Part shown: positions 947 to 62,381 of the stretch, in pieces
Layout: each line of letters opens with the position of its first letter
How positions within the stretch are numbered: the first letter of the stretch is position 1
NCBI RefSeq assembly: GCF_000504285.1
Contig: NZ_KI632511.1
Span: forward strand, 865,372 to 929,371
DNA: 64,000 nt
Direction: 5' to 3'
From: Actinospica robiniae DSM 44927
GTDB taxonomy: Bacteria; Actinomycetota; Actinomycetes; Streptomycetales; Catenulisporaceae
The notes under the pieces: generated by a model
The model's database searches: none
Seen by the model: the letters and a program-made list of their open reading frames with translations, nothing else
What the model was told of the DNA's origin: nothing
Translations under genes and position numbers: made by a program

Positions 947-2235
947 CTACGGTAGAACCGCCCCTCCGGCCGCCGCGCTCCGATGAGCCTGAGAGCCTTT
1001 GGCGGCATCGGGACTTCCGCACGTTCTGGATCGGCGAGACCGTCTCCCTGCTCGGCACCCAGATCACGAATCTCGCACTGCCGTTGACCGCCGTCTACGC
1101 GTTCCACGCGACCGACGCCCAGGTGGGCCTGCTGCGATTTCTTCAGCTCGCCCCGTATATCGGACTGGCGTTGGTCTTCGGGGTCTGGGTCGACCGGCAC
1201 CGCAGGGGACGGGTGATGCTCTGGACCAACCTGGCCCGGATGGTCCTGGTCGCCCTGGTGCCGGTTCTGAACTGGTTGCATGGACTCGACATGGCGGTGT
1301 TGCTGGTCATCTCCTGTGTCGTCGGCGTCACCTCGGTGATGTTCGATGTGAGCTGGATGCCCTTCGTGCCCGGCCTCGTACGGGACCCTGGCCTCCAGGT
1401 CGACGCCAATGCGAAGATGGGGATCAGCTCCTCCACGGCGGGCGTGGCGGGGCCGGGGATCGCTGGCGCCGTGGTGGCCGCGTTGACCGCGCCGGCTGCC
1501 ATGGCCTTGGACGCGCTTTCCTATGGAGTCTCGGTCACCTCGCTCCTGCTGATCCGAACGCCCGAGCCCCGCCCGGCGCAAACCGCGGATCGGCGCGTGG
1601 CGAGCGAAGTGCGCGACGGGCTGCACTGGGTCTTCGGCAGGCCGATTCTCAGCTGGCTCGCGATGGTCGGCTTCTGCTGCAACCTCTCGATGACCGCCGT
1701 CTGGACCATGTTCCTGCTGTATGGAACCCACGAGCTTCAGCTGAGCCCGTCAGACCTCGGCCTGATCTTCACGATCTCCTCGATCGGCGGAGTGATCGGC
1801 GCGTCGGCCTCCGGATGGATCATCAAGAAGTTCCCACTCGGGCGCGTCTACTTCACTGCTCAGTCCGGACTGCTGCTCGGCCCGGCTTTGATCGTCCTGA
1901 TCTCCGGTCCGCGTTTGTTGGCGATGGCGCTGGCCGCCGGTTCCTTCTTCCTCACCTATCTGGGCCTGGGTGTCGCGAACGTCATCATCGTCACTGTCCG
2001 CCAGGCCGCGACCCCCCAGGCGCTGATGAGCCGGATGACCGCGTGTTTCCGCATGCTGCTGTTCGGCGGCGGCGCCATCGGCGGCCTGCTCGCGGGCCTT
2101 CTCACTGGGTGGATGGGCGACCGGAACGCACTTGTCGCCGCTGCCGTGTTCTCGGCCGTCGTCGTCCTGGCCCTGGCGGCATCTCCGGTCAGCCGAATGC
2201 GCACCCTGCCGCCGAACCTGGAAGACCGCGACTGA
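943..2235 (+). CDS. MFS exporter (EntS-like/MFS_3 type)
   Basis: A 430-residue integral membrane protein with about 12 hydrophobic segments. It begins with the typical N-terminal FRTFWIGETVSLLGTQITNLALPL segment of EntS-like major facilitator exporters and has the loop 2-3 signature GVWVDRHRRGRVM. These transporters usually export siderophores, macrolides or other small metabolites by proton antiport. The start codon overlaps the stop of the upstream PLP enzyme (ATGA), so they form an operon. A strong inverted repeat at 2251-2284 ends it. Confidence 0.9.
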   Translation: MTTVEPPLRPPRSDEPESLWRHRDFRTFWIGETVSLLGTQITNLALPLTAVYAFHATDAQVGLLRFLQLAPYIGLALVFGVWVDRHRRGRVMLWTNLARMVLVALVPVLNWLHGLDMAVLLVISCVVGVTSVMFDVSWMPFVPGLVRDPGLQVDANAKMGISSSTAGVAGPGIAGAVVAALTAPAAMALDALSYGVSVTSLLLIRTPEPRPAQTADRRVASEVRDGLHWVFGRPILSWLAMVGFCCNLSMTAVWTMFLLYGTHELQLSPSDLGLIFTISSIGGVIGASASGWIIKKFPLGRVYFTAQSGLLLGPALIVLISGPRLLAMALAAGSFFLTYLGLGVANVIIVTVRQAATPQALMSRMTACFRMLLFGGGAIGGLLAGLLTGWMGDRNALVAAAVFSAVVVLALAASPVSRMRTLPPNLEDRD

Positions 2236-54935: not shown

Positions 54936-55324
54936 GGGTGTTCCTCTCCTTCGCGCGCCCGCGGCGCGCCGTGTCTTTTCGTCGGGACGAACGTCTGACG
55001 AGGCAGCGCGGTCACCTGTGACGGTTCCGAGTGTGACGCCGATCACTTTCCGGGCCCGGTCGGGAGCGTGACGCCGCTCGTCATGCGCTCGGATGATCAT
55101 CTGAGCTACTCCGAATGGTGGACCGTCTTTCGGACCAGGGCGTGTATATGCCGGATTAGGCGGGGCAGATCTGGTATGGGCCGGTTCTGAGGCTGCGCTC
55201 AGCAGTGGCTTCAGAAGCGTTAACATGCCACTCGTACGCTGACCGATCGAGCACATCATCAGGCGACCGCCGGGAGCAGGAGACCCGAAGGGACCCTGCG
55301 ACCCTAGAAGTGGGGAGCGAAGGA
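54936..55324. other. 389-bp intergenic region between divergent genes
   Basis: It contains promoters for the AhpD/sigma operon (leftward) and the dioxygenase-like gene (rightward). A TGTCTTTTCGTCGGGAC... TGTGACGGTTCC stretch near 54970-55025 could be the ECF41 promoter (TGTCACA-CGTC-like), but it does not match well enough to call. No gene is seen. Confidence 0.35.
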
Positions 55325-56053
55325 ATGTCAGGCCTCACCGACGTTCTGAAGAACGAATACACCGGAAAGCTGCTCAACCTGGCGGGGGTGCGCAAGCCCC
55401 CGTTCGTCCCGGACCTCAACACCAAGCACTACCGCACCCCGCTGGTCGAGGCCGGCGGCGGGCACGTGACGCTGAAGAAGTACTCCGGTCCGGAGATCCC
55501 CGCCTCGGAGTGGGAGAGCCTGGAGTACACCACCTACAAGAGCGACCCGTTCACCTGGTTCGCCCCGATCACCTCGCCGACGGGCAAGAACGAGATGATC
55601 GGCGCCGCCGAGGTGGGCAAGGAGGAGCTCGACTGCGTGCCGACGCCGAACTCCGAGAAGTGCCCGACCATCATGGCCTGGCTCGACTCGATGGGCGCGC
55701 GTTACGGCCGGGTGCAGCTGCTGCGCATGAAGCCCAACACGCTGCGCGAGTGCCGCTGGGGCCTGCACCAGGACAACAACAACCTGAAGAACCCGGACAC
55801 CCACGGCTGGATCGTGCGGATCTGGCTGGAGCTGACCCACGACGCCACCAGCCAGCTGCTGGTGCGCTCGGAGCACTTCAACAAGAAGACCGAGCACGCC
55901 ATCGCCCTGCCGGCCGGCCAGCAGGCCGTGGTGGACTCGGAGCGGCTGTGGCACGGTGGCTCGCACTCGGGCACGCACACGCGCTACGCGCTGATCGCGA
56001 GCATGGAGTCCAGCCCCGAGCTCAACGACTGGATAAAGTCGCAGCTGCCGTAA
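55325..56053 (+). CDS. Fe(II)/2-oxoglutarate-dioxygenase-like protein (AspH-type fold), unknown substrate
   Basis: A 242-residue cytoplasmic protein. The candidate iron motif is in WGLHQDNNNLKNPDTHGWIVRIWLELTHDATSQLLVR (HxD) and WHGGSHSGTHTRYALIASME (distal His plus Arg for 2-oxoglutarate). This His-x-Asp...His...Arg spacing resembles aspartyl/asparaginyl hydroxylase-like double-stranded beta-helix proteins. No further family is recognised. A GGAGCGAAGGA precedes the ATG. It is monocistronic and ends in a strong terminator. Confidence 0.55.
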   Translation: MSGLTDVLKNEYTGKLLNLAGVRKPPFVPDLNTKHYRTPLVEAGGGHVTLKKYSGPEIPASEWESLEYTTYKSDPFTWFAPITSPTGKNEMIGAAEVGKEELDCVPTPNSEKCPTIMAWLDSMGARYGRVQLLRMKPNTLRECRWGLHQDNNNLKNPDTHGWIVRIWLELTHDATSQLLVRSEHFNKKTEHAIALPAGQQAVVDSERLWHGGSHSGTHTRYALIASMESSPELNDWIKSQLP

Positions 56054-56147: not shown

Positions 56148-57746
56148 TCAGCTCGGGTGGTGCCAGCCGTCGTGCAGCCGCCGGTCGAGCTCGGCCAGGT
56201 CGAACACGTCGGCGCCGGCGTCGCCGTGCCGCCGCAACGAATCCTGGTAGCGCGCCATGCCGCCGCAGTCCTCGGGCGGAGCCGCGCGCCGTCCGCCGAT
56301 GCAGCGCGGATAGACCGTGCCGGGCTCCGGCTCCTTGACGCTCTCGACCCGGATCACGTGCTCCCAGTAGTCGCCGTAGTCGTAGACATAGCCGATCTTC
56401 GCGTTGCCCTGCAGGATTTGATCGACCGTCACCTCGCCGTCGTGGCGGTGGCCGAGGGCGACGTCGCCGTCCCCGAACTCGCCCAGCGGGGTCTCGAACA
56501 CGTGCAGGTGGCTGCCTTCCCATTCGAACACGGTCTGGATGACCTCGTGCAGGCCGGCCAGAGTCAGATCGCCCGGGACCTCGACCCGGCGCCAGATCGG
56601 CGGCTTGGCGCCCTTCAAATCGATGCGCAACCGGTAGATCCGGCTCGCCGCCGCGTCGGACGCCGCCGGGCTCTTGCCCGAACGGTAGGCGGCCGGGCGG
56701 CCCGCGGTGAAGCCGGAGTGGGTGGCGCCGGGGCCCGGCTGCGCGCCGATGAAGAGCTCGATCCCGGCGGCACCGGGGAAGTCCGGGAAGGCCAGGTCCA
56801 GCCCCGCCCCGAATTCGAGCTCTGCCCCGGCCGGTCCGCCCGCCCCGGCCGCGGACGCCGGCAGGTGCTCGACCCGGTGCCGGAGCACCGGAATCATCGT
56901 GGGCACCGGCGGCGCGAGCGGGTCGTCATCGGCCTCGGTCCACTGCTCCAGCCTGGCCTCGAGGTCCAGGCCCGCGTCGTGGGACGCGCGCAGCCGCAAC
57001 GCGCTCTCCAACTGCGACCGCGCCTCGGCCGGCGAAAGGGGCTCGGTCTCGGCCTCCTCGATCTCGCCCGGGGGAACCAGTTGCGCGACCAGGTCGGCCA
57101 GCCGCGCCGGCACCTCCACCGCGGTCAACGGGGCGATCCGCTTGAAGGCCGGGCACTGCCCGTCCTCGAGCGTGATCGCGAACGCGTGCCGGCGCCCGGC
57201 CCGGCGGAACGAGCAGAGCAGGATCCGCTCGCCCAGCGGGCGGCGCACGCTCAGGCACTCTTCGGCCACCACGTCCCGGTCGAGCTCCTCGAACCAGAAC
57301 GGCGGCAGGATCCCGGCGCGCCACAGCCGCGCGGCACCGCGTCCGGCCACGGCGCCGGCCGGGCCGTCGGTGATCAGGGCGAGGGTGGCGAGCACGGCCA
57401 GGGCCAGCGGGTCGGCCCGGGCCTCGAGCCGGCCGACCAGATCGGCGACCGCGTCCGCGGGCAGGGCGCCCTCGAGGATCGCGGCGAAGCCGGAGACGGT
57501 CAGCTCGAACGCGAACGGGTCCTCGCGCTCGGCCACCCGCGCCAGGTCGGTCAGCAGCGCGGCGGCGAACGCGGCCGCGTCCAGTCCGCCGGCCCGGGCC
57601 GGGGTCGGGGCGGCGTCCCGGTCCGGCTTGCGGCGGGAGCGGCGGGCCGGCGGAAGCGGGGCGGGATCCGCGGGTTCCTCGGACCGGCCGGACGGTTCGC
57701 CTCCGCCGAGCGGCTCGGTCTCGCCGAGATGGTGGTCTGTGCTCAC
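56148..57746 (-). CDS. Plasmid pRiA4b ORF-3 family protein
   Basis: A 532-residue cytoplasmic protein. Residues 1-50 are a basic/proline-rich tail. A helical domain (about 55-270) lies in the middle. The C-terminal PRiA4_ORF3 domain (about 368-510) has IYRLRIDLKGAKPPIWRRVEVPGDLTLAGLHEVIQTVFEWEGSHLHVFETP, then YVYDYGDYWEHVIRVESV and YPRCIGGRRAAPPEDCGGMARY. The family is widespread on plasmids and chromosomes, and its function is unknown. GTG start at 57746. Confidence 0.9.
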   Translation of the reverse strand: MSTDHHLGETEPLGGGEPSGRSEEPADPAPLPPARRSRRKPDRDAAPTPARAGGLDAAAFAAALLTDLARVAEREDPFAFELTVSGFAAILEGALPADAVADLVGRLEARADPLALAVLATLALITDGPAGAVAGRGAARLWRAGILPPFWFEELDRDVVAEECLSVRRPLGERILLCSFRRAGRRHAFAITLEDGQCPAFKRIAPLTAVEVPARLADLVAQLVPPGEIEEAETEPLSPAEARSQLESALRLRASHDAGLDLEARLEQWTEADDDPLAPPVPTMIPVLRHRVEHLPASAAGAGGPAGAELEFGAGLDLAFPDFPGAAGIELFIGAQPGPGATHSGFTAGRPAAYRSGKSPAASDAAASRIYRLRIDLKGAKPPIWRRVEVPGDLTLAGLHEVIQTVFEWEGSHLHVFETPLGEFGDGDVALGHRHDGEVTVDQILQGNAKIGYVYDYGDYWEHVIRVESVKEPEPGTVYPRCIGGRRAAPPEDCGGMARYQDSLRRHGDAGADVFDLAELDRRLHDGWHHPS

Positions 57747-58130: not shown

Positions 58131-59135
58131 TTATCCCGCCAGGGCCTCCGGCGCGTAACGCTCGATGTGCTGCAGACTGAACCGGGCGTCGCGCGCGGCG
58201 GCGAGGCGCACCGGCCCGCCGCCGGTGTACGCGCCGACCTCGGCGAGCGTTCCGGCGACGACGAGGTGCGCTGAGCGCAGCACCTCGGCCGCGGCCAGTC
58301 CGGCGGCGTCGGCCACCATCAGGTATTCGCCGGTGCTGCAGCCGAAGTTCCCGGCCGTCAGCGCGGGGGAGTCGGACTCGATCTGCTGGGAGATCAGGTG
58401 GCCGCCGAGCAGATCGAGCACCTGCTGGTCGAAGGCGTCGGGCAGGCGCGGCTTGACCAGGCGCAGGTCGCAGACGTAGAGCTGGCGCGCCCCGGTTTCG
58501 GCGAAGGTGACCTCGACCCCGTCCGCGGCCGCGGACGCAGGCTCGGCGAGCACGGAGTCGATCAGTTCGAGTGCTGCTTCGGCCGAGTGCAGGTTGTACT
58601 GCCCGCAGGCCTCCGGGGTGGAGAAGGGCACTGGTTCGCCCGCCCGGAACTTCTCCCGGATCACCTCGAGCGCCGCGCGGTAGGCGGCCAGCAGCGTCGC
58701 GGTGGGCAGCGGGCCGCCCTCCTGCCCGTCGCCGGCGCCATCGAGGGTGACGAAGGTGGAGCGGAAGCCGAGCGGCAGGCTCTCGCCGTCGGCCGAGTCC
58801 AGCAGGCCTGGAATATAAGGGCTCATATCGATCAGGCGCGCGGCGAAGGCGGCACCGGCGCCGGTGGCCTCGGCGATCCGGGCGCGCAGGTCGCCGCCGT
58901 CCGGCGACGCCAGCGCGTGCTCGATCGAGTGGATCCCGGCGAACAGGTGGTCGCGGGCCGGCCCGGGCTCGGCCGGGTGGACGGCGGCGACCGGGAAGAA
59001 GGCGTGCTGCAGCCGCAGCGGCGCACTGCCGGTGACGCGCTTGTCCGCGTTGAGCGTGCCGCCGGTCATGGCCAGGTGGTCCTTGCCGGAGGAGTGCTTG
59101 GCCAGCAGCTCGACCGTGATCTCGGCGGCGCTCAT
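58131..59135 (-). CDS. Two-domain LuxS-like S-ribosylhomocysteine lyase homologue
   Basis: A 334-residue protein, about twice the usual LuxS length (about 157). The N-half has HLFAGIHSIEHAL (His69, Glu72, His73) and EACGQYNLHSAEAALELI (Cys177), matching the three zinc ligands of LuxS (HxxEH and the CGQ Cys). At the catalytic-Cys position it reads LGFRSTFVTLD instead of MGCQTGFYL. The C-half repeats the fold: VCDLRLVKPRLPDAFDQQVLDLLGG, then NFGCSTGEYLMVAD with Cys266 at the catalytic position, but it lacks the zinc ligands. It is coupled to pfs (ATGA), whose product makes the LuxS substrate. I infer a fused pseudo-dimer; activity is untested. Confidence 0.75.
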   Translation of the reverse strand: MSAAEITVELLAKHSSGKDHLAMTGGTLNADKRVTGSAPLRLQHAFFPVAAVHPAEPGPARDHLFAGIHSIEHALASPDGGDLRARIAEATGAGAAFAARLIDMSPYIPGLLDSADGESLPLGFRSTFVTLDGAGDGQEGGPLPTATLLAAYRAALEVIREKFRAGEPVPFSTPEACGQYNLHSAEAALELIDSVLAEPASAAADGVEVTFAETGARQLYVCDLRLVKPRLPDAFDQQVLDLLGGHLISQQIESDSPALTAGNFGCSTGEYLMVADAAGLAAAEVLRSAHLVVAGTLAEVGAYTGGGPVRLAAARDARFSLQHIERYAPEALAG

Positions 59136-59839
59136 CGGGCGATCCCCGCGGGCTCGCCGGCGCCGATGCCGTGCGCGTGCAGTATCTGGTCGGCGACGGC
59201 GGACAGGTGCGAGAGCGCGTAGGGCATGTTCTCGTCGAAGGCGTCCGGAGAATCGCTGTCGCAGTAGTCCGAGGGCGCCTTGTAGCTCTCCAGCCGGTCG
59301 AGTTGTCCGTTGCGCAGCAGCGTGTGCGCGATCGCGGTCAGCTCCATGTCGACGAAGTCGGCGGCGAACCCGGCCAGCTCCGGGTGGAATCCGTCACGTC
59401 CGGTGACGAAGGTGTCGCCGGACAGCAGCTTGGCCGTCGGCAGCGAGCGCGCCTCGACCGGCTCGGACAGCGGGTACTCGTGCACCTCGGTCTCCGGGAT
59501 CTGGCCGATCTTGTAACCGAAGGCGGTGACGTCCACGTCGAAGAAGGCGCAGGTGGACACGGAGTGCACGGCGCCGATCGGGATGTCGTGGTTGAGGCAG
59601 CCGACCAGGCCGAGGTTGACCACGCGGTCCGGGGCGAACCGGTCGAGCACGTGCTGGGTGGCCGCCGCCGCGTTCGTGGTGCCGATCCCGCTGACCACGA
59701 CCACGGCCTGGGTGCCGCCCTCGGCGAGACGGTAGACCGGGAAGGGGCTCAGGCTCAGCTCCTCCCAGGAGCTCAGCCGGAAGATGCCCTCGGCCTCCTC
59801 CATCATCGCGATCACGAACGCCACCGGAGTCTGTGTCAT
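59132..59839 (-). CDS. pfs: MTA/SAH nucleosidase (Pfs-type)
   Basis: A 235-residue nucleosidase. Family motifs are AFVIAMMEEAEG (catalytic Glu), VVVVSGIGTTNAAAATQHVLDRFAPDRVVNLGLVG, DVDVTAFGYKIGQIPE and DFVDMELTAIAHTL (MExT adenosine-binding region), with a SDYCDSD segment in the place of the SDxxD motif. Pfs cleaves S-adenosylhomocysteine to adenine and S-ribosylhomocysteine. The downstream gene, coupled by ATGA, is a LuxS homologue that would use the second product. A minus-strand TAGCAT 6 bases before the ATG suggests leaderless transcription. Confidence 0.9.
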   Translation of the reverse strand: MTQTPVAFVIAMMEEAEGIFRLSSWEELSLSPFPVYRLAEGGTQAVVVVSGIGTTNAAAATQHVLDRFAPDRVVNLGLVGCLNHDIPIGAVHSVSTCAFFDVDVTAFGYKIGQIPETEVHEYPLSEPVEARSLPTAKLLSGDTFVTGRDGFHPELAGFAADFVDMELTAIAHTLLRNGQLDRLESYKAPSDYCDSDSPDAFDENMPYALSHLSAVADQILHAHGIGAGEPAGIAR

Positions 59840-59845
59840 GCGATC

Positions 59846-59851
59846 ATGCTA
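59846..59851 (-). promoter_or_regulatory. -10 hexamer TAGCAT before pfs
   Basis: On the minus strand TAGCAT ends 6 bases before the pfs ATG; a ribosome binding site cannot fit. Confidence 0.4.
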
Positions 59852-60005
59852 CCTGCCATCAGGTCGCCGGTCGGCTGGGATACCGCGACATGGACACACA
59901 CCGCTGTGAAGTCCGCGGCTGGGGTGCGGCGCCCGGCCCCGTGGCGGCCCGCGCCCGGCCGGTCCGGCGGATCCGGCGGGGCGGCGTGGTCCCGGCGGCG
60001 GGCTC

Positions 60006-60011
60006 TAGGCT
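60006..60011 (+). promoter_or_regulatory. -10 hexamer TAGGCT before phzF
   Basis: TAGGCT ends 7 bases before the phzF ATG, again a leaderless layout. Confidence 0.4.
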
Positions 60012-60018
60012 GGCCGGT

Positions 60019-60708
60019 ATGAGGATGACTGTGCTGGTGGTGCGGGTGTTCACGGATGAGGCCGGAAGCTTCGGCAACGAACTCGGCGTGGTGCTCGACG
60101 CCGCAGGGCTGCCCGACGAGCTCGGACCGCGGCTGACCGCGCACCTCGGCTTCCACGAGACCGTCTTCGTCGACGACCTCGCGCACGCCGACCTGCGCAT
60201 TTTCGCCCCCACGGCGGAGCTGCCGCTGGCCGGCCACCCGCTGGTGGGAGTGGCCCGGGTGCTGGCGGACGTCACCGGACGGGTGCCGGAAGTCCTCCGG
60301 CCGCGGCTGGTCGACCCGGTGGAGACGTGGCAGGACGGCGAGCTGACCTGGATCCGGGCGAACACCGCCTCCGCGCCGGAGTTCGCCTTCACGCAGCTCG
60401 ACTCGCCCGCCGAGGTCGAGGCACTGAGTCTGCCCGTCCCCGGCCAAGCGCCGAAGGACCAGTTCTGGGCGTGGATCGACGAGCCGGCCGGAGAACTGCG
60501 GGCGCGGACGTTCGCCGAGGCGCTGGGCATGGGCGAGGACGAGGCGACCGGCTCGGCCGCGCTGCTGCAGGCGCAGCGCCACGGCCGCGAGCTGACCATC
60601 CGTCAGGGCCGCGGCTCGGTGCTGCACGCCCGCCCGGCGCCGCAACCGGGCTGGTCGGAGGTCGGCGGGCGCGTGGTGGATGAACAGGAGCGCGTCGTCG
60701 AGCTCTGA
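60019..60708 (+). CDS. PhzF-family isomerase/epimerase
   Basis: A 229-residue protein with the PhzF/DAP-epimerase-like fold. LRIFAPTAELPLAGHPLVGVARVLA carries the signature LPFAGHPTxG region, here APTAELPLAGHPLVG. GEDEATGSAALLQAQ is the C-terminal phosphate/substrate loop. The usual family length is about 260-290, so this is a short member. PhzF enzymes isomerise trans-2,3-dihydro-3-hydroxyanthranilate; most homologues have unknown substrates. No phenazine genes are present here. Confidence 0.85.
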   Translation: MRMTVLVVRVFTDEAGSFGNELGVVLDAAGLPDELGPRLTAHLGFHETVFVDDLAHADLRIFAPTAELPLAGHPLVGVARVLADVTGRVPEVLRPRLVDPVETWQDGELTWIRANTASAPEFAFTQLDSPAEVEALSLPVPGQAPKDQFWAWIDEPAGELRARTFAEALGMGEDEATGSAALLQAQRHGRELTIRQGRGSVLHARPAPQPGWSEVGGRVVDEQERVVEL

Positions 60709-60818: not shown

Positions 60819-62381
60819 ATGGTTGATCGAGATGCCACGGACGCCCGTGCTGCTGCCGCTGCGGACCTTGCTGCTGATGCTGAGGTGGCTGGTGCCGGCG
60901 TCGACCGGGAGTTGGATGTGGACGTCGACCGGGAAGTGCTCGTCGGTGGCGTGAACGAGGTCGTGCGCGAAGGAGGCACTGTCAGGCGTCCGGCTGGACC
61001 ATGGAGCGAGACGGTGCAGCGGCTGCTCGCGCACCTGGCCGCGAGCGGCTTCGCGGGAGCTCCGGAGCCGCTCGGGTTCAGCGAAGACGGCCGCGAGGAG
61101 CTCGTCGAATTCCTGCCCGGCGAGGTCGGGCACGACTTCGCCGCACCGCAGGTGCGCAGCGACGCGTCGCTCGTGGCCGTGGCCAAGCTGCTGCGAGGGC
61201 TGCACGACGCCTCGGCGACGTTCGTCCGCAGCGATGCAGACGTCTGGTACATGCCGCCGCGCGAACCGGCCGAGGTGATCTGCCACGGCGACGCCGCGAC
61301 GTACAACACCGTCTTCCGCGACGGCGTGCCCGTCGCCTTCTTCGACTTCGACACCGCTCACCCCGCGCCGCGCATCTGGGACGCGGCGTACACCGCGTAC
61401 CGCTTCGTGCCCCTCTATGCGCCGGATGAGGCCGAGCTGACGCAGCCGGTCGACGAAGCGCGCCGCCGTATCGCGCTTTTCGCCGACGCGTACGGCCTGA
61501 CCGACGCCGAGCGTGCAGCGCTGCCAGCAGCAGCGGCCGAACGCCTGCGCGCCCACGTCGCGCTGATGCGAAGCCAGGCGGCAGCGGGCAACGCTGCATT
61601 CGCCCGGCACGTCGCGGAAGGCCACGACCGCAGGTACCTGACCGACGCGGAGTGGATCGAGCGTGTCTATGGAGGTGTGTTGCGCAGCGAACGGCTCGCG
61701 CTGCGGCCCGTGCGCCCGGACATCGACCACGCGTGGCTGCTGGCCCACTGGACCGAGCTCGACGTGCGCAGATTCCTGCACGACGGCGAGCTGCTGACGC
61801 CCGATGAGATCGCGACGGAGATCGCGGAGAGCGTGCGCAGCTTTGCCGAGGGCGGATACGGCCTCTGGCTCATCGAGCCGATCGACGGCGACGCGGGCAT
61901 GGACGCAGACCCGAACGCGGGCACGGACATGACCGGCGCCACCACTGGCGCCGACGTCACCGCCGACGCCATCGCCGGTGCCGGTGCTGCCGCTGACGGC
62001 ACGGCTGGGGCCGACGTCACCGCCGATCCCATCCCCAGCGCTGACGGCGGATCCCTTGCCGCCGCTGCTAGCCGCGGCCACCGCCGCTGCCTCGGCACGG
62101 TCGGCATCCGCCCGCTCGATGACCTCGGACTCGAGCTCTACTACAGCCTCGCCCCCGATGCGTGGGGCCGCGGCTACGCCACCGAGGCCGCGAGCATGGT
62201 GCGCGACCACGCGCTCGCCGCGCTCGGGCTGCCCGAACTGCTTGCCGAGGTGGACGCCGACAACAGCGCGTCCGCCGCTGTCATCGCCAAGCTCGGCATG
62301 GTCCCGTTCGACGTGGTGCCCGGCTTGCTCGGCCCGATGACGAGGTATCGCACCGTCAGTTCGCCCACCACCACGGCCTGA
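60819..62381 (+). CDS. Fusion of aminoglycoside-phosphotransferase-like and GNAT acetyltransferase domains
   Basis: A 520-residue two-domain protein. Residues about 45-285 form an APH/choline-kinase-like fold, with VICHGDAATYNTVF (catalytic HGD, His near 156) and VAFFDFDTAHPAPRIWD (metal-binding Asp). Residues about 290-510 form a GNAT domain of the RimJ/RimL type: RSERLALRPVRPDIDHAWLLAHWTELD, then WGRGYATEAASMVRDHAL (the acetyl-CoA loop) and DADNSASAAVIAKLGM. The GNAT domain is interrupted between strands by about 70 residues of Ala/Asp/Gly/Thr-rich low complexity (about 360-428). Fused APH and GNAT activities recall bifunctional aminoglycoside-modifying enzymes, but in the opposite order. 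Substrate unknown. Confidence 0.85.
   Translation: MVDRDATDARAAAAADLAADAEVAGAGVDRELDVDVDREVLVGGVNEVVREGGTVRRPAGPWSETVQRLLAHLAASGFAGAPEPLGFSEDGREELVEFLPGEVGHDFAAPQVRSDASLVAVAKLLRGLHDASATFVRSDADVWYMPPREPAEVICHGDAATYNTVFRDGVPVAFFDFDTAHPAPRIWDAAYTAYRFVPLYAPDEAELTQPVDEARRRIALFADAYGLTDAERAALPAAAAERLRAHVALMRSQAAAGNAAFARHVAEGHDRRYLTDAEWIERVYGGVLRSERLALRPVRPDIDHAWLLAHWTELDVRRFLHDGELLTPDEIATEIAESVRSFAEGGYGLWLIEPIDGDAGMDADPNAGTDMTGATTGADVTADAIAGAGAAADGTAGADVTADPIPSADGGSLAAAASRGHRRCLGTVGIRPLDDLGLELYYSLAPDAWGRGYATEAASMVRDHALAALGLPELLAEVDADNSASAAVIAKLGMVPFDVVPGLLGPMTRYRTVSSPTTTA

Follow-up and report, generated by a model that had tools for sequence, protein, structure and literature searches.

Canonical LuxS and related families

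Canonical LuxS (Pfam PF02664; PDB entries 2fqo from B. subtilis and 4xch from S. suis) forms homodimers, each chain being about 155 aa long, with two active sites per dimer. Excerpts of the literature describe its residues as follows: (i) the metal ligands are His54, His58 and Cys126 (PMC5029033); (ii) Cys84 and Glu57 are critical and Ser6, His11 and Arg39 important for catalysis (PMC4618692, PMC3019222), with the Arg39 strand adjoining the Cys84 strand (PMC3019222); (iii) Glu57, Arg65 and Asp78 are important in substrate binding, Phe7 works across the subunit interface, and three His and a Glu lie in one subunit (PMC2656534). In the excerpted part of a homology-model paper, one chain contributes its metal-cysteine region and helices to the substrate pocket, and the other its N-terminal region and strand beta5 (PMC8301110); since beta5 would come last among the strands, we infer it to be the one with Cys84. 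The pocket given for a monomer model of E. coli LuxS, again in an excerpt, comprises Glu57, His58, Asp77, Ile78 and Cys128 (PMC10100900), and the absence of Cys83 and Arg39 from it fits both coming from the other subunit. Both pocket descriptions (PMC8301110, PMC10100900) agree with a role of Cys84 and Arg39 across the interface. In the excerpts available from the openly licensed PMC literature we found no explicit statement of which subunit carries Cys84, and no mention of a fused or tandem LuxS or of LuxS in Actinospica.

The M16 metallopeptidases (insulin-degrading enzyme, mitochondrial processing peptidase) are related to LuxS in fold by structural alignment (VIA-align, below). Their HxxEH motif is common to both groups; M16 proteins have duplicated domains, one of which keeps the zinc site while another gives substrate-binding residues, and their third metal ligand is a Glu, where that of the LuxS type is a Cys. 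The Pfs enzymes, with which LuxS is paired, use MTA as well as SAH.

The window studied here is the whole 64,000-nucleotide stretch of DNA from the soil actinomycete Actinospica robiniae DSM 44927. On its minus strand, a pfs gene is followed by a gene for a two-domain LuxS-like protein. Their features are, in window coordinates:

58131..59135, minus strand: two-domain LuxS-like gene, an ORF with ATG start, 334 aa, with a PF02664 match
58527..59135, minus strand: N-half (residues 1-203), putative metal-binding LuxS domain, with profile and fold match
58134..58526, minus strand: C-half (residues 204-334), LuxS-like, clear metal site absent, with profile match; best Pfam stretch 215-278
58917..58931, minus strand: HSIEH, residues 69-73, aligned with canonical His54, Glu57 and His58; identical in 3/3 species
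58818..58832, minus strand: IDMSP, residues 102-106, aligned with the canonical Asp78/Ser80/Pro81 loop; identical in 3/3 species
58764..58766, minus strand: Phe124 in GFRSTF, aligned with the position of catalytic Cys84
58599..58607, minus strand: CGQ, residues 177-179, aligned with the canonical metal ligand Cys126; invariant in three species and a truncated copy
58449..58469, minus strand: DLRLVKP, residues 223-229, with Arg225 aligned to Arg39
58320..58343, minus strand: GCSTGEYL, residues 265-272, with Cys266 aligned to Cys84; invariant in three species and the truncated copy
59132..59839, minus strand: pfs, MTA/SAH nucleosidase, 235 aa, PF01048, best PDB match 3eei
59132..59135, minus strand: ATGA start/stop overlap of the pfs stop and the LuxS-like ATG; also in two other species

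The pfs gene and its neighbours

The two frames and their 4-base overlap are as the first-pass annotation had described them, and the overlap is kept in all three Actinospica species. The pfs product scores 67.6 bits against PF01048 (PNP_UDP_1; cut-off 25.1), and its best PDB match is the MTA/SAH nucleosidase 3eei (E = 8.8e-19). The likeness to Pfs/MTAN structures (3eei, 1jys) is nearly full-length and includes an FGYxxGQxP stretch; its Glu15, Glu166 and Asp191 are matched by the same residue types in 3eei, at positions that we take to be the catalytic Glu12, Glu174 and Asp197 of the E. coli enzyme. Since the NCBIfam cut-offs are missed (TIGR01704, 70.6 bits with cut-off 73.8; NF004079, 80.8 with cut-off 169), the protein appears to be a somewhat divergent member of the MTA/SAH nucleosidases. 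It is among nine PNP_UDP_1 matches in its genome.

Several neighbouring genes may be recorded: (i) A PhzF-like gene (Pfam) at 59833-60708 is divergent from pfs-luxS, and by eye it is also divergent at L004 3488-4276 and L005 1328-2143, hence in 3/3 species. (ii) Downstream of the LuxS gene and on the same strand lies a gene for a pRiA4b ORF-3-like protein (Pfam, 56148-57746); a similar ORF is seen by eye at L005, and L004 has another gene there. (iii) An APH-type phosphotransferase and GNAT acetyltransferase fusion (Pfam) at 60819-62381 contains an Ala/Asp/Thr-rich insert, shorter by eye in the A. durhamensis homologue (L004 959-2347). (iv) A 282-aa ORF at 55205-56053 contains the stretches HQDNNN, HGG and RYAL and reaches the cut-off of no Pfam family; from these motifs we presume that it may be a divergent aspartyl-hydroxylase-like oxygenase.

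LuxS homology of both halves

The 334-aa protein matches PF02664 in two stretches with 34.2 bits (cut-off 27), and a Pfam scan of it at E up to 1 returned LuxS alone, with no M16 family. When a six-frame search of the genome scored the two stretches apart, they gave 19.5 and 12.6 bits, both below that cut-off, and no second LuxS match was found in this genome at E up to 1. Scores against NCBIfam S-ribosylhomocysteine lyase models reach 23.8 bits at best, far under what the nine listed models require (158-307). Among PDB sequences the closest match was S. suis LuxS, 4xch, with E 0.0083 for the single sequence and 0.0012 for a three-species profile.

Against 40 canonical LuxS, 24 of them from Actinomycetota genomes and 16 from viral contigs, the N-half profile (three species) aligned with probability 96.6 and E 6.7e-10, and the C-half profile (three species and the truncated copy) with probability 88.5 and E 2.7e-6. 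The lowest E values among 50 column-shuffled profiles per half were 0.02 (N) and 0.0099 (C); because the real values lie far below these, the LuxS likeness of both halves is not due to chance, and the earlier description of two LuxS-like halves is borne out. Aligned directly to each other with hhalign, the N-half and C-half showed no similarity (E 0.53), so their common LuxS ancestry is the one argument for an origin by internal duplication.

Partition of conserved residues

We defined conserved columns as those with an identity of 95% or more among the 40 canonical LuxS (n = 27), and counted a column as kept when its residue is present in all three species. Fourteen columns are kept in the N-half only, six in the C-half only, two in both and five in neither. 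The N-half keeps Ser6 (as Ser15), His11 (His20), His54, Glu57 and His58 (69, 72, 73), Ala61, Arg65 (Arg84), the Asp78/Ser80/Pro81 loop (103, 105, 106), and Cys126 with Gly127 (177, 178); Ala55 and Phe124 take the places of Arg39 and Cys84, which it has lost. The C-half has retained Asp37, Arg39 and Pro43 (223, 225, 229) and Gly83, Cys84, Thr86, Gly87 and Tyr89 (265, 266, 268, 269, 271), and has lost His54, Glu57, Asp78, Ser80 and Cys126. Neither half retains Phe7, Asn44, Met82 or the Asn that follows Cys126-Gly127; the fifth column lost from both is an Ala, variable in the C-half. In this alignment each of the eight residues reported for metal binding or catalysis occurs in exactly one half, in 3/3 species.

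The first-pass annotation had read HSIEH and CGQ in the N-half as zinc ligands, with Phe in place of the catalytic Cys, and had assigned that Cys to GCSTGEYL in the C-half; alignment with the 40 canonical LuxS places His69, Glu72, His73 and Cys177 on His54, Glu57, His58 and Cys126, Phe124 of the N-half on Cys84, and Cys266 of the C-half on Cys84 as well. Its further statement, that the C-half has none of the zinc ligands, stands for His54 and Cys126 and needs qualifying for His58: the conserved C-half His246 falls on or next to that position in two alternative alignments (on it in the row set used for the structure model), so the claim is alignment-dependent for this one His. The arm residues and His246 are placed less certainly than the core motifs.

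Should Cys84 and Arg39 act in trans, the residues retained would form one whole interface site and those lost would belong to the other; the partition fits the single composite site that had been suggested for the fused chain. The three His and one Glu placed in one subunit in the excerpt of PMC2656534 fit the partition only if the third His is His11. The N-terminal arm may not match this simple model, because Ser15 and His20 align in the metal half, and in the excerpt of PMC8301110 the arm found at the pocket belongs to the other chain.

Distribution and selection

Within the collections searched, the full-length fused gene is found in Actinospica only. Four of 60 relatives had a match, namely the three Actinospica genomes (the other two being A. 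durhamensis and A. acidithermotolerans) and a single genome from a different genus of the same family; the 10 genomes searched from a third genus of that family gave no match. A scan of genome contigs returned two loci, those of the other two Actinospica, and no match to the fusion was found in plasmids, phages or viral contigs. Among 21 relatives, close homologues of this pfs were found in the three Actinospica only. A broad search used a three-member profile against 396 genomes of the phylum and 394 of the class, with up to five candidates scored per genome. It matched two genomes in each set, the own genome and one weak match. Both weak matches were judged chance: that of the phylum set (19.3 bits) had no LuxS-like ORF by eye and was not among the LuxS matches; that of the class set (20.9 bits) was a 359-aa ORF with VNHSIEHAL, in which no other LuxS motif was seen.

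The match in the other genus is a truncated copy of 202 aa (L009, ORF 1486-2094, minus strand) that starts shortly before the CGQ region. Its frame is open, CGQ and GCSTGEYL are intact, and it matches at the Cys84 strand, with a His at the Arg39 position; an HxxEH part and a close pfs were not found. Relative to the three full genes its dN is 0.41-0.44 and its dS 0.84-1.05 (ratio about 0.41-0.49), and it is a relic in decay or else a remainder that stands by itself.

The three species pairs give dN/dS ratios of 0.329, 0.327 and 0.346 for the whole LuxS-like gene. By part, the ratio is 0.26-0.46 for the N-half, 0.19-0.42 for the C-half and 0.27-0.41 for pfs; at 0.19-0.46 across the halves, both are maintained by selection.

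Coexistence with SahH

SahH is encoded in 354 of 396 sampled Actinomycetota genomes and in all 21 relatives (one as a partial match). Canonical LuxS scores over cut-off in 24 of the 396, and none of these 24 has SahH. Among genomes without canonical LuxS, the own genome left out, 353/371 have it (Fisher p = 2e-27 for exclusivity, shared ancestry being ignored). The three Actinospica genomes have both SahH and the Pfs-LuxS pair. The first-pass annotation had contrasted a possible LuxS-type enzyme with the usual SahH of actinomycetes; sahH is indeed present, so the fused LuxS is an addition to SahH and not a replacement for it. Because Actinospica also has SahH, the fused LuxS is probably not the main SAH route, nor needed for SAH recycling.

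A proposed single-chain LuxS and its alternatives

We regard it as probable that the protein is a pseudo-dimeric single-chain LuxS with one composite site, which would split the S-ribosylhomocysteine (SRH) that the coupled Pfs releases. An ancestral luxS may have been duplicated and then fused; of the two interface sites, identical at first, each half would then have given up the residues of one. From the N-half would come the divalent metal, bound by His69, His73 and Cys177, together with Glu72 as acid/base and the loop Asp103-Ser105. Packed on it as the other subunit, the C-half would give Arg225 and the catalytic Cys266, with one active site left per chain. Pfs, probably coupled translationally through the 4-base overlap, would take adenine off S-adenosylhomocysteine, and the fused LuxS would split the resulting SRH into homocysteine and DPD. 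With SahH encoded in the genome as well, this pathway probably serves as a side route that produces DPD/AI-2-like compounds or clears SRH, and not as the main methyl cycle. Several points count against the pseudo-dimer: five conserved columns, Phe7 and Asn44 among them, are missing from both halves; the NCBIfam lyase cut-offs lie far above its scores; and SahH leaves LuxS no evident metabolic need to meet.

The substrate may instead have changed: the composite site could apply its metal-assisted keto-isomerisation and thioether cleavage to a different Pfs product or a related 5-thio-ribose compound, and Pfs enzymes do take MTA besides SAH. The wide divergence of the protein, which falls below the LuxS equivalog cut-offs, is in keeping with this, as are the presence of SahH, with which SRH need not be the substrate, and the extra N-half residues between IDMSP and GFRSTF, adjoining the substrate loop. 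However, Glu57, Arg65 and Asp78, the substrate-binding residues named in the excerpt of PMC2656534, are all kept in the N-half, and we consider a changed substrate rather unlikely.

A LuxS relative without catalytic activity, binding metal or SRH/SAH and serving Pfs as regulator or scaffold, is improbable. Such a protein would suit the incompleteness of each half, the five conserved columns missing from both and the presence of SahH for SAH recycling; but the eight metal and catalysis residues survive in one half or the other in 3/3 species, and a pseudoenzyme would have no need of them.

Structure model

The LuxS likeness was also examined in predicted structures. With four relatives as alignment rows, AlphaFold gave a model of pLDDT 42.2 and pTM 0.35, which was not taken into the fold search. 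A second input, with 46 pieces of 23 of the 40 canonical LuxS added as rows, raised these values to 71.1 and 0.73; as the model was poor without them, the better one was led in part by the supplied LuxS rows. The row set used puts canonical Arg39 and Cys84 on residues 225 and 266 and Cys126 on 177, and has the flaw that the LuxS N-terminal arms are laid over N-half residues 155-197. Other layouts of the LuxS pieces (MAFFT) were set aside: depending on the set, whole LuxS went to the N-half or the C-half, and short pieces were often misplaced.

In VIA-align, residues 34-206 of the model align with B. subtilis LuxS 2fqo (Z 11.6, rmsd 3.1, 130 aligned). Fourteen LuxS entries come on top (Z 9.9-11.6), and bc1-core and M16-type proteins reach at most 7.5. 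All rows lie within residues 34-214, so that this fold evidence covers the N-half, in a model biased by LuxS rows; the lack of a separate C-half row does not speak against that half. Foldseek also put LuxS first, but weakly (E 1.4e-3), and nothing reached E 0.001 or better. A LuxS fold is predicted, in short, for the N-half only and from a model made with LuxS rows. The shared HxxEH motif and the M16-fold proteins in the list (Z up to 7.5) could suggest an M16-like zinc peptidase, or another HxxEH protein, mistaken for LuxS, but this is hardly credible given the LuxS chains on top (with LuxS rows in the model alignment), LuxS as the one Pfam family, and pfs as the partner gene. Besides HSIEH, the protein has the conserved Cys177, which would be a third ligand of LuxS type, that of M16 being a Glu.

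Relation to canonical LuxS and significance

The fused protein resembles canonical LuxS in the predicted fold of its N-half, the HxxEH and CG metal site, the counterparts of Glu57, the Asp78/Ser80 loop, Arg39 and Cys84, and the pairing with Pfs. It differs in carrying two LuxS-like domains in one 334-aa chain, in the splitting of the residues of one site between halves, with one site per chain expected as against two per dimer, and in coexisting with SahH. It is a member of the LuxS superfamily that departs from two features defining the canonical enzyme, namely the Cys and metal ligands in one domain and the single-domain homodimer, and its likeness in mode of working, to a LuxS active site shared across an interface, has stronger support than its formal assignment to the family. 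More specifically, we suggest, tentatively and as a possibility rather than an expectation, a one-chain, one-site LuxS that arose by fusion and complementary loss and serves, in a filamentous actinomycete with SahH, not the recycling of SAH but a dedicated side pathway to DPD (AI-2) or a related dicarbonyl signal or metabolite.

The single-chain LuxS, if such it is, would amount to a natural experiment, in which the residues of one active site have been sorted onto two covalently joined halves; the partition points to residues that act together and to those that act across the interface. Half-of-the-sites behaviour of the LuxS dimer has been a speculation from simulation (excerpt of PMC2929236), and a one-site chain would make it testable. 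Actinospica breaks the sampled pattern, in which none of 24 LuxS genomes has SahH, and this raises the question of why both routes are kept.
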